Virus record (IMG/VR): IMGVR_UViG_3300047629_000010
Location: 1-37,643 of that record
DNA: 37,643 nucleotides
Strand: one strand, 5' to 3'
Source: a virus
The notes beneath the pieces were generated by a model that saw only the letters and a program-made list of their open reading frames with translations, made no database searches and was not told the DNA's origin. Positions 1 through 37,643 of this stretch are shown in pieces (position 1 is the first letter of the stretch; each line of letters begins with the position of its first letter). Both the position numbers and the translations under genes were made by a program.

Positions 1-127
1 GAAGGTTCTGGGATCAACCGCGATTCCGGCGGGAACCTACCCTCTGACGATCAACTTCTCCAACCGCTTCCAAAGGCTTATGCCTCGACTTTTGAACGTG
101 CCGAACTTCGACGGGATTCTGATCCAC
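1..127. repeat. Terminal direct repeat (circular-contig overlap)
   Basis: These 127 bases are identical to the last 127 bases (37517..37643). The DUF5675 reading frame continues in phase from the right end into the left end. This is what an assembler leaves when it closes a circular or circularly permuted molecule, and 127 is a common largest k-mer. A true short terminal repeat of the packaged DNA is less likely but not excluded. Confidence 0.93.
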
Positions 128-6986: not shown

Positions 6987-7112
6987 ATGAAAATAAAACT
7001 ACCGACTGTAAAGTGCCTCAGATGCCACCATAAGTGGACCCCTCGAAAGAATTTCCTCCCGAAGCGGTGCGCGGGTTGCCTGTCGAGGAATTGGAGAAAG
7101 GAGAAACCATGA
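6987..7112 (+). CDS. Small zinc-ribbon protein, leaderless first gene of accessory operon
   Basis: This 41-residue protein carries CLRCHHKWTPRK followed by CAGC and a basic tail (RNWRKEKP). It is the same layout as the 48-residue protein at 1314, including the W.PRK stretch between the knuckles. The ATG is 6 bases after the -10 box and has no ribosome-binding site. It ends over the ATG of the next gene. It is probably a DNA- or RNA-binding peptide; a role in regulating the two operons is inference. Confidence 0.7.
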   Translation: MKIKLPTVKCLRCHHKWTPRKNFLPKRCAGCLSRNWRKEKP

Positions 7113-7822
7113 AAGCTTTTTTGAATGATGAGAAGGTCAAGGAACAATATCTCGGGCGCGTTCGCGCTCATGCGGCGGCTGACCAGTTGGTGAAAGGCCA
7201 GTACTGGAAGGACGGGAAGGGTTGCGCGGTTGGTTGCACCATCCACTCGAACGATCACTCAGCCTATGAATGCGAATTGGGAATCCCCCGAAGTATCGCT
7301 CGTCTCGAAGATGGAATCTTTGAAGGACTCCCGAACGATCTGGCGCAGACGTGGCCAGATCGGTTTTTGTCGGCCATTAAAATTGGCGCTGATCTGTCTC
7401 AGGTAACGGCGAAGTTCATGCTCTGGCTTTTGGCTGATCCGAAAGATGGAGTGATTAGGTTCGCCAAGAAAGAGAAAACGAAAGCGGCTATACAAATAGT
7501 GATCGACCTTTACGAGCGGAAGCTGAAAGGTGACGAACCAACAAGTGCGGAATGGATAAAAGCAAGAAACGCCGACGCCGCCGCCGCCTACGCCGCCGAC
7601 GCCGCCGACGCCTACGCCGCCTACGCCGCCTACGCCGCCGCCGACGCCGCCTACGCCGCCTACGCCGCCGACGCCGCCGACGCCTACGCCGCCTACGCCG
7701 CCTACGCCGCCTACGCCGCCGACGCCTACGCCGGCGGCGGCGCCGACGCCTACGCCGCCCGACATGCTCACTACGTTCGTATGTCCGAAAAACTTCTTGA
7801 GTTACTACGAGACGCGGCGTGA
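7109..7822 (+). CDS. Phage protein with Ala-Tyr/Asp low-complexity repeat domain
   Basis: This 237-residue protein starts at an ATG overlapping the previous stop, after a GGAGAAA site. Residues 1 to 150 form a folded domain, with QLVKGQYWKDGKGCAVGC at about 29 to 46. This N-terminus recurs in environmental phage proteins that also carry alanine-rich repeats. Residues about 153 to 217 are made almost only of Ala, Tyr and Asp (units such as AAYAADAADAY), encoded by GCC, TAC and GAC. A short helical C-terminus (YVRMSEKLLELLRDAA) follows. The function is unknown. Confidence 0.7.
   Translation: MKAFLNDEKVKEQYLGRVRAHAAADQLVKGQYWKDGKGCAVGCTIHSNDHSAYECELGIPRSIARLEDGIFEGLPNDLAQTWPDRFLSAIKIGADLSQVTAKFMLWLLADPKDGVIRFAKKEKTKAAIQIVIDLYERKLKGDEPTSAEWIKARNADAAAAYAADAADAYAAYAAYAAADAAYAAYAADAADAYAAYAAYAAYAADAYAGGGADAYAARHAHYVRMSEKLLELLRDAA
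7567..7760 (+). repeat. GCC/TAC/GAC codon-scale low-complexity repeat
   Basis: About 190 bases consist of GCC codons with TAC or GAC every second or third codon, plus a short GGC run near 7731. It encodes Ala with Tyr or Asp. The opposite strand reads as long poly-Arg or Gly/Val frames, which are artefacts. Copy number may be misassembled. Confidence 0.9.
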
Positions 7823-7935
7823 AACCGTTCGCGTGTTGCGACTGCCGGGCAGAATTCGGAATCCGCTTTGTAGCGGTCCTCCACGCTTTCTTTACTCGGC
7901 ATCTGATGATCGAAAAACAAGGAGAGAAGAGATGA
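7819..7935 (+). CDS. Possible tiny CxxC protein overlapping the pilin-like gene
   Basis: A 38-residue ORF with GTG overlapping the previous stop and a TGA overlapping the next ATG. That double coupling is the rule in this genome. The N-terminus has FACCDCRAEFG. Its end is encoded by the first copy of the repeated leader cassette (7898..7928). It may only serve to deliver ribosomes to the next start. Confidence 0.42.
   Translation: MKPFACCDCRAEFGIRFVAVLHAFFTRHLMIEKQGEKR
7898..7928 (+). repeat. Leader cassette copy 1 (of three)
   Basis: A 31-base segment beginning GGCATCTGATGAT and ending in a GGAGAG Shine-Dalgarno recurs identically at 8331..8361. A diverged copy is at 8954..8981. Each lies just before a start codon (7932, 8364, 8988), so the three genes share a duplicated ribosome-binding region. 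Confidence 0.85.
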
Positions 7936-8324
7936 AAAAAGGTTTCACGCTTATTGAGCTGATGATTGTCGTGGCGATTATTGGGATTCTGGCGGCGGTC
8001 ATCGTCCCGAGTGTCGGTGTGATCACGATCATGCCGCACTACTCCGACGGAGAGCGGACGGGCGTTGTCGTCAAGTTGAGTAAGAAGGGCGTCGTCTGGA
8101 AAACGTGGGAAGGCGCGATGAACATCGGGTCAATGTCTACGGATGGGAACGGTGTTGCGGTTCCGACGGTGTTCGAGTTTTCGGTGAAGGACGATGCGCT
8201 TGCCGAAGAAATTTCCGAATCGGCGCGCGCCGGGAAAAGGGTCACGCTTGTTTATGAACAGGCTTTGATGCGCTCGCGGCGAGATGGGGACACGCCCTAC
8301 CTGATCGTGTCGGTTAAGAAGTGA
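7932..8324 (+). CDS. Prepilin-signal fusion to a bacterial YSDG/KTWEG envelope domain
   Basis: This 130-residue protein begins MKKGFTLIELMIVVAIIGIL. That is a full type IV prepilin leader: cleavage after Gly4, Phe at +1, Glu at +5 (Glu9) and a roughly 20-residue hydrophobic helix. Residues 37 to 130 do not look like a pilin head. They match a conserved bacterial membrane-anchored protein family marked by YSDGERTGVVVKLSKKG and VWKTWEG, sometimes mislabelled 6-phosphogluconate dehydrogenase. The phage product should be processed by a host prepilin peptidase or stay anchored in the inner membrane. Its start has a strong GGAGAG site in the repeated leader cassette. Confidence 0.82.
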   Translation: MKKGFTLIELMIVVAIIGILAAVIVPSVGVITIMPHYSDGERTGVVVKLSKKGVVWKTWEGAMNIGSMSTDGNGVAVPTVFEFSVKDDALAEEISESARAGKRVTLVYEQALMRSRRDGDTPYLIVSVKK

Positions 8325-8330
8325 CTCTGG

Positions 8331-8361
8331 GGCATCTGATGATCGAAAAACAAGGAGAGAA
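8331..8361 (+). repeat. Leader cassette copy 2
   Basis: Identical over 31 bases to 7898..7928, and again placed directly upstream of a start codon (8364). It contains the Shine-Dalgarno AAGGAGAG. A tiny reading frame (ATG at 8339, MIEKQGEKNV) passes through it and stops just inside the next gene. Confidence 0.85.
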
Positions 8362-8363
8362 AA

Positions 8364-8726
8364 ATGTCTGAAAAAGTACGAGTTCAGGAGTTGACGATTG
8401 ACGGCGAGGTGTACGTTCCGAAGAACAGTGTTCCCGTTGTTGAAGGGGATTACTTCATCGTTCGCACTTATTCCGCTGGTGTGTTCGCTGGCGAGATCGT
8501 GAGCAGGAACGGGAAAGAAGTCGTGATGAAGAACGCGCGGCGGTTGTGGTACTGGACGGGCGCGGCTTCCCTTTCTCAGTTGGTTGTCGAAGGAACGAAC
8601 AATCCTTCTCAGTGTAAATTCCCCGTCGCCGTTCCGCGCGTGGAGTTGACTGAGGCCATCGAGATTCTTGACGTGACCGCGAAGGCCCGAAAGAGCATCG
8701 AGAGCGTGAAGATATGGGAAGCGTAG
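8364..8726 (+). CDS. DUF6948-like phage protein
   Basis: A 120-residue protein with the recognisable core FIVRTYSAGVFAGEI, then VVMKNARRLWYWTGAASLSQL and a CKFPVAVP segment. This pattern matches the phage family I know as DUF6948. It has no established function and is often found next to glycine-rich repeat ORFs, as here. The gene ends inside the start of the Gly-Ser/Asp repeat ORF. It uses the second leader cassette for translation. Confidence 0.72.
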   Translation: MSEKVRVQELTIDGEVYVPKNSVPVVEGDYFIVRTYSAGVFAGEIVSRNGKEVVMKNARRLWYWTGAASLSQLVVEGTNNPSQCKFPVAVPRVELTEAIEILDVTAKARKSIESVKIWEA

Positions 8727-8962
8727 AAGCCAACGGGTCCGGGTCCGGGTCCGGGTCCGGGGACGGGTCCGGGGACGGGTCCGGGTACGGGGACGGGGAC
8801 GGGTACGGGTACGGGTCCGGGGACGGGTCCGGGTCCGGGGACGGGTCCGGGTCCGGGGACGGGTCCGGGTCCGGGGACGGGTCCGGGTCCGGGGACGGGT
8901 CCGGGTCCGGGGACGGGTACGGGTCCGGGGACGGGTCCGGGGACGGGTCGAAGGGCATCTGA
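8714..8962 (+). CDS. Gly-Ser/Asp/Tyr repeat protein
   Basis: This 82-residue ORF consists almost entirely of Gly alternating with Ser, Asp or Tyr (for example GSGSGDGSGDGSGYGDG), encoded by GGG with TCC, GAC or TAC. It begins at an ATG inside the previous gene and lacks a clear ribosome-binding site, so it may be translated by coupling. Similar repeat ORFs follow DUF6948-like genes in other phages as I recall, which supports it being real. It should be disordered; a sticky or phase-separating role is speculation. Confidence 0.6.
   Translation: MGSVEANGSGSGSGSGDGSGDGSGYGDGDGYGYGSGDGSGSGDGSGSGDGSGSGDGSGSGDGSGSGDGYGSGDGSGDGSKGI
8737..8949 (+). repeat. GGG-TCC/GAC/TAC codon-scale low-complexity repeat
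   Basis: About 210 bases alternate GGG with TCC, GAC or TAC. A recurring larger unit is GGGTCCGGGTCCGGGGAC. As in the repeat at 7567, the variable codons include TAC and GAC. Copy number may be unreliable in a short-read assembly. Confidence 0.9.
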
Positions 8963-8981
8963 TGATTGAGAAGGGGAGGGA
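8954..8981 (+). repeat. Leader cassette copy 3 (diverged)
   Basis: It shares GGCATCTGATGAT with the copies at 7898 and 8331, then diverges (TGAGAAGGGGAGGGA) but keeps a strong Shine-Dalgarno. The start codon at 8988 follows. Confidence 0.7.
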
Positions 8982-8987
8982 GTGAAA

Positions 8988-37401: not shown

Positions 37402-37643
37402 ACGTCATCACCGTCCAACGGAAGTTCTTCACCGACAAGACCACGGTAGGATTGTTGTCCATCGGTGGGCTTTCCGTTTGCGACACGCTGGAACCCACCT
37501 GCCGAGCGGATGGGGTGAAGGTTCTGGGATCAACCGCGATTCCGGCGGGAACCTACCCTCTGACGATCAACTTCTCCAACCGCTTCCAAAGGCTTATGCC
37601 TCGACTTTTGAACGTGCCGAACTTCGACGGGATTCTGATCCAC
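37398..37643 (+). CDS. DUF5675 family protein, 5' part (continues at base 1)
   Basis: ATG 37398 overlaps the previous TGA (ATGA). The frame encodes NVITVQRKFFTDKTTVGLLS and runs in phase through the terminal overlap to the stop at 322, giving a 146-residue DUF5675 protein on the circle. It is the first gene of the lysis module, followed by a putative holin and a peptidase. Confidence 0.87.
   Translation, partial: MNVITVQRKFFTDKTTVGLLSIGGLSVCDTLEPTCRADGVKVLGSTAIPAGTYPLTINFSNRFQRLMPRLLNVPNFDGILIH
37517..37643. repeat. Terminal direct repeat (right copy)
   Basis: This is identical to 1..127. Removing one copy gives a 37,516-bp circle. Confidence 0.93.

Follow-up and report, generated by a model that had tools for sequence, protein, structure and literature searches.

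A prepilin-type leader as the probable anchor of a bacterial envelope domain in an uncultivated phage

Type IV pilins are defined by an α1-C half-helix and a β-meander head, and their α1-N half is the main assembly interface (PMC4471445). A prepilin N-terminal motif can by itself insert a protein into the membrane and leave the remainder periplasmic; the peptidases that process prepilins are promiscuous (PMC4471445). According to their abstracts, two phage proteins inhibit type IV pili by binding to components of the machinery: PfsE of Pf4, which binds PilC (PMC8764522), and Tip, which binds PilB (PMC8143254). In the literature that we searched, no relevant description of a phage prepilin fusion was found. 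The sequence-only reading of a viral genome of 37,643 nucleotides (IMG/VR record IMGVR_UViG_3300047629_000010, here called the window) proposed such a fusion, and we compared it with the known systems by profile searches, structure prediction and genome comparison.

The translation of the fusion gene begins MKKGFTLIELMIVVAIIGILAAVIVPSVGVITIMPHYSDGERTGVVVKLSKKGVVWKTWEGAMN (130 amino acids), and AAGGAGAG lies directly 5' of its ATG, giving an open frame with its own ribosome-binding site (Table 1). The proposal that this protein carries a complete type IV prepilin leader was borne out by both leader models, with scores of 34.4 bits for Pfam N_methyl (1.4e-8; curated cut-off 21.2) and 37.4 bits for TIGR02532 (1.4e-9; curated cut-off 16.3). 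A basic leader ending in Gly is followed by Phe (the position of Phe/Met in class III signals) and a hydrophobic tract of about 21 residues, and Gly-1, Phe1, Glu5, Gly14 and Pro22 of a full class III (prepilin) signal peptide are all present. Across the six frames of the window this motif, together with its hydrophobic tract, appears a single time, and 150 triplet shuffles gave no instance of it. A tblastn search of isolate phages with this leader gave no match, the low-complexity filter of BLAST probably masking it, and no prepilin peptidase gene was found in the virus record.

Table 1. Features of the fusion gene and its surroundings (window positions)
Feature	Position	Strand	Basis
First copy of the 31-nt repeat (includes a ribosome-binding site), ahead of the fusion gene	7898..7928	+	
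Prepilin-leader/OB-domain fusion protein P0001, 130 aa	7932..8324	+	leader models, bacterial-family HMM, AlphaFold
MKKG leader, with prepilin peptidase predicted to cut after Gly4	7932..7943	+	sequence, TIGR02532
Pilin-type α1-N TM tract F1..P22 (FTLIELMIVVAIIGILAAVIVP) with E5, G14, P22	7944..8009	+	sequence, N_methyl, TIGR02532, model helix 7-23
Short linker SVGVITIMP, replacing the pilin α1-C half-helix	8010..8036	+	pLDDT < 50 at residues 29-33, helix absent
OB-like domain, YSxGxRxG...KTWEG family, residues 36-130	8037..8321	+	family HMM, alignment, AlphaFold, PDB matches
Second copy of the 31-nt repeat, 100% identical to the first, ahead of the DUF6948 gene	8331..8361	+	
Neighbour gene DUF6948	8364..8726	+	PF22253 2.3e-30
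Third copy of the 31-nt repeat, degenerate (68%), ahead of the gene for a small membrane protein	8954..8984	+	
Neighbour gene, 83 aa, one plain N-terminal TM helix	8982..9233	+	

The remainder of the protein belongs to an envelope family with the pattern YSxGxRxG...KTWEG, which was seen in Bacteroidota, Acidobacteriota and Pseudomonadota and matched no Pfam or NCBIfam domain model. Using residues 36-130 and one plasmid relative (Bernardetia) as queries, we took 80 of 173 loci from 84,980 species genomes, and extra members were obtained from samples of the phyla of one betaproteobacterium and one acidobacterium. An HMM built from the first set of bacterial members only scored the phage domain at 1e-29 to 1e-32, upholding the claim of an in-frame fusion to a known bacterial membrane-anchored domain within a phage genome. 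The phage domain aligns over its full length with the family at about 35-50% identity, and G40, R42, G44, S50, G53, KTWEG at 57-61, Y108 and G119 are invariant in 41 of 41 rows including that of P0001. In the bacterial tree it sits on a long branch (1.66 changes per column). The sequence-only reading had also held that the family is normally anchored in another way, and this was the case: 96 of the 97 bacterial members inspected have a plain N-terminal TM anchor, the remaining one is cut by a contig end, and a prepilin start was found in none of the 97. The fusion protein also has an N-terminal hydrophobic helix, as the tethered family does, but one of the prepilin type, which would place the domain outside the cytoplasm.

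The only other phage member found is encoded by MT835492.1, from a human faecal sample (HMM 4.6e-15; around 59.2-59.5 kb), and it begins with a lipobox, LTSC (MKKIFIFLVAMACLTSC). The search of phage databases for the same fusion, which had been suggested as a check, turned up no second case, its sole phage relative being this lipoprotein. PHROG gave weak matches to the domain only (phrog_35243, 0.0016), and scans of IMG/VR with three alignments, made with narrow peptide patterns that leave absence unproven, found none. By topology rules, the three tethers now seen on one domain (plain TM, lipoprotein and prepilin) would all place it outside the cytoplasm. Prepilin peptidase was searched for in six family-holding genomes; two betaproteobacterial genomes and one acidobacterial genome had one match each, and three genomes of Bacteroidota/Chlorobiota (G008, G009 and G010) had no match, from which it appears that the ancestral role of the domain needs no prepilin peptidase. 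Because the domain has a plain TM anchor in Bacteroidota genomes in which no prepilin peptidase was found and a lipoprotein signal in another phage, what is conserved appears to be its membrane tethering and not a link to pili.

The AlphaFold model of the fusion protein, a confident fold prediction from 41 sequences (mean pLDDT 81, and about 90 for the larger part of the barrel), has a helix at residues 7-23, a low-confidence linker at 29-33, and then b37-52, b58-70, b76-85, a88-100, b103-111 and b123-129. These elements form a five-stranded barrel in the order b1-b2-b3-alpha-b4-b5, as in an OB fold. The best PDB matches of the model are OB-fold SSBs, with modest TM scores of about 0.45-0.5 that speak for likeness at the fold level only, and many of the viral structure matches are likewise OB-fold single-strand-binding proteins with modest TM scores. 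We read this likeness as a resemblance of predicted folds and not as evidence of DNA binding. The α1-C half-helix and the β-meander head of pilins are absent from the model, which accordingly lacks the α1 of about 50 residues packed on a β-meander head that marks a whole pilin or pseudopilin.

The virus record encodes a terminase (phrog_2, 4e-25), a portal, a tail fibre and an ERF recombinase, and its identical 127-base ends (window 1-127 and 37517-37643) probably denote a closed circular assembly. Relatives of the terminase were found in G003, L026 and L027 (59-60% identical) and in G004 (39%), all of which have the head and tail module in common with the record; neither a prepilin-leader ORF nor a match to the fusion protein was found in these four, two of which (L026 and L027) are fragmentary. 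The fusion gene sits in a variable region upstream of the terminase, where it resembles, as we infer, a cassette between direct repeats; in L026 the DUF6948 gene and the Gly-rich repeat stretch after it are present and the fusion gene ahead of them is missing. The number of perfect 31-nt repeat pairs of this kind expected by chance is 0.00, and the repeat was not found in other IMG/VR contigs. Three nearby genes are headed by this repeat (GGCATCTGATGATCGAAAAACAAGGAGAGAA), which bears a ribosome-binding site. Directly after the DUF6948 gene, window 8726-8960 is a GC-rich tandem repeat (GGGTCCGGGGAC...) with Gly-Ser/Asp-rich coding, and a similar stretch occurs in L026. The ORF at 7034-7822 ends in a C-terminal Ala/Tyr/Asp repeat (AAYAADAADAYAAY...), and its N-terminal part has relatives in L170 and L171.

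A leader scan of IMG/VR, which used the pattern MKKGFTL only, returned 32 contigs. Eight of them (L119, L120, L124, L139, L140, L142, L144 and L145) carry cellular-type pseudopilins and may be host DNA, and about 20 other contigs of uncultivated phages, several with clear phage genes, have prepilin leaders on short, mostly unrelated domains. At 13 of these latter loci, as a raw count, a Band_7/SPFH gene lies 0-1401 bases upstream on the same strand (L001, L003, L004, L118 and L121, one family; L009/L010; L014; L018/L019; L005; L015; L021). At least six lineages that look separate show this pairing of an SPFH (prohibitin-like) gene with a small prepilin-leader ORF, and the C-terminal parts of the small proteins are for the most part unrelated. 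Relatives of one leader-paired SPFH protein are carried by 52 isolate-phage records, and no prepilin leader was found among the neighbours of the SPFH genes in the eleven regions read (14 fetched). For three other phage proteins with a prepilin leader, the C-terminal parts had no match in isolate phages. One six-contig phage family (L114-L118 and L121) joins the leader to a C-terminal domain rich in Cys (such as CIKKCTREN..ESLxxFCIKExC), and in two viral contigs of 251 and 323 kb (L141 and L143) a small domain that contains His and Cys (GHDIIHHPDCPCF) has a prepilin-like leader.

Taking these results together, we consider that the fusion is probably an inner-membrane-tethered periplasmic OB-domain accessory (moron-like) protein that uses a pilin-type start as its anchor. 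Replacement of the anchor is the most economical reading because the motif alone inserts, the peptidases are promiscuous and the record has no peptidase gene. It is supported by a leader over the cut-offs of its models, a domain score of 1e-29, an OB-like fold without a pilin head and the three types of anchor, as well as by the other uncultivated phages that likewise attach prepilin leaders to small unrelated domains. In the proposed mechanism, KK would remain cytoplasmic, the α1-N helix would cross the membrane and the OB domain would be periplasmic (N-in/C-out), a topology equal to that of the plain TM anchors of the bacterial relatives. The prepilin peptidase of the host, on which processing would depend since the record has no peptidase gene, would remove MKKG and perhaps N-methylate the new end. 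Our guess as to function is that the tethered OB domain itself might alter the host envelope in infection, for example in superinfection exclusion, without joining a pilus. Glu5 matters in filament assembly and is costly within a plain TM anchor. A counterpoint to anchor replacement is that every pilin signature including Glu5 is kept, whereas a mere anchor would have no need to retain Glu5 unless the acquisition was recent.

The sequence-only reading suggested that the protein may be inserted into host type IV pili or type II secretion systems, for instance to block pilus function and superinfection. The cleaved protein could enter a type IV pilus or a T2SS pseudopilus, or jam the assembly platform; such entry or jamming is conceivable since Glu5 and the full α1-N, with Phe1, Gly14 and Pro22, are kept, and phage blockers of type IV pili exist in PfsE and Tip. 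However, nothing beyond the leader speaks for it, the model has neither α1-C nor a pilin head, and the domain uses other anchors elsewhere, including in genomes without a detected prepilin peptidase. In addition, the known phage blockers target PilC or PilB and are not presented as pilin mimics in their abstracts. We thus regard the proposal as possible but unsupported, and unlikely. The Band_7 genes 0-1.4 kb upstream at 13 other IMG/VR prepilin-leader loci would favour a role as one subunit of a membrane complex of the phage, comparable to the small proteins with prepilin anchors near phage SPFH/Band_7 genes, but no Band_7 gene was found in the window record and the C-terminal domains differ, which makes this very unlikely here.

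Two further explanations concern the origin of the gene. Capture of a bacterial gene that serves no selected function in the phage would fit the lack of the gene in the closest phage relatives (G003, L026, L027 and G004, partly fragments) and its position between direct repeats, which resembles that of a removable cassette; the conserved residues of the domain are nevertheless intact despite the long branch, so that the gene is no recent copy and has been retained, and we judge such a passive capture quite unlikely. The sequence-only reading had itself raised the worry of an assembly chimera. The record is derived from a metagenome and no second record with the same fusion was found in the searches made, and the 5' end of a host pilin gene might have been joined to another gene during assembly or annotation. 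The worry is weakened by the perfect repeat at both ends of the fusion gene: with an identical 31-nt sequence on either side, the second copy preceding the DUF6948 gene and a decayed third one the gene at 8982, both ends are tied to phage DNA. The open frame with its own ribosome-binding site, the 127-bp identical record ends expected of a closed assembly and the prepilin leaders seen independently on small domains in other contigs also argue against such an artefact, which is highly improbable. GC3 is 0.62 in the leader versus 0.72 in the domain, but only 29 codons are involved, too few to bear on a junction artefact.

Anchor replacement suggests that pilin starts serve phages as borrowed, ready-made anchors for envelope domains. 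More broadly, though this is less likely than not, phages may repeatedly use prepilin leaders as exchangeable membrane anchors for small envelope-acting domains, with processing by the host peptidase and with an SPFH scaffold partner in several uncultivated lineages, the window protein being a variant without SPFH. If true, a phage envelope protein under the control of the host prepilin peptidase would tie host takeover to pilus/T2SS biogenesis, and no description of such a link was found in the literature searched. The comparison of plain TM, lipoprotein and prepilin anchors makes the question of anchor only versus filament route directly testable, and a recurrent pairing of SPFH and prepilin-anchored proteins would indicate a phage membrane system undescribed in the literature found.

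Among the known systems, the bacterial YSxGxRxG...KTWEG family has the same domain and shares the G, R, G, S, G and KTWEG positions with the phage protein, and differs from it by its plain TM anchor. The MT835492.1 lipoprotein is also phage-borne and has the same domain tethered outside the cytoplasm, but its lipobox LTSC takes the place of the prepilin leader. As far as their abstracts go, PfsE and Tip are small phage proteins acting on host pili, and the analogy, which follows the idea of the sequence-only reading, is a functional one. A prepilin-type signal on a non-pilin domain was reportedly described by Szabo et al. in 2007 for an archaeal, sugar-binding case; it resembles the phage protein in this combination but is cellular. 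Type IV prepilins and pseudopilins share the MKKG leader, F1, E5, G14, P22 and the hydrophobic α1-N with the phage protein; where they continue into α1-C and a pilin head, the phage protein has an OB-like domain instead.
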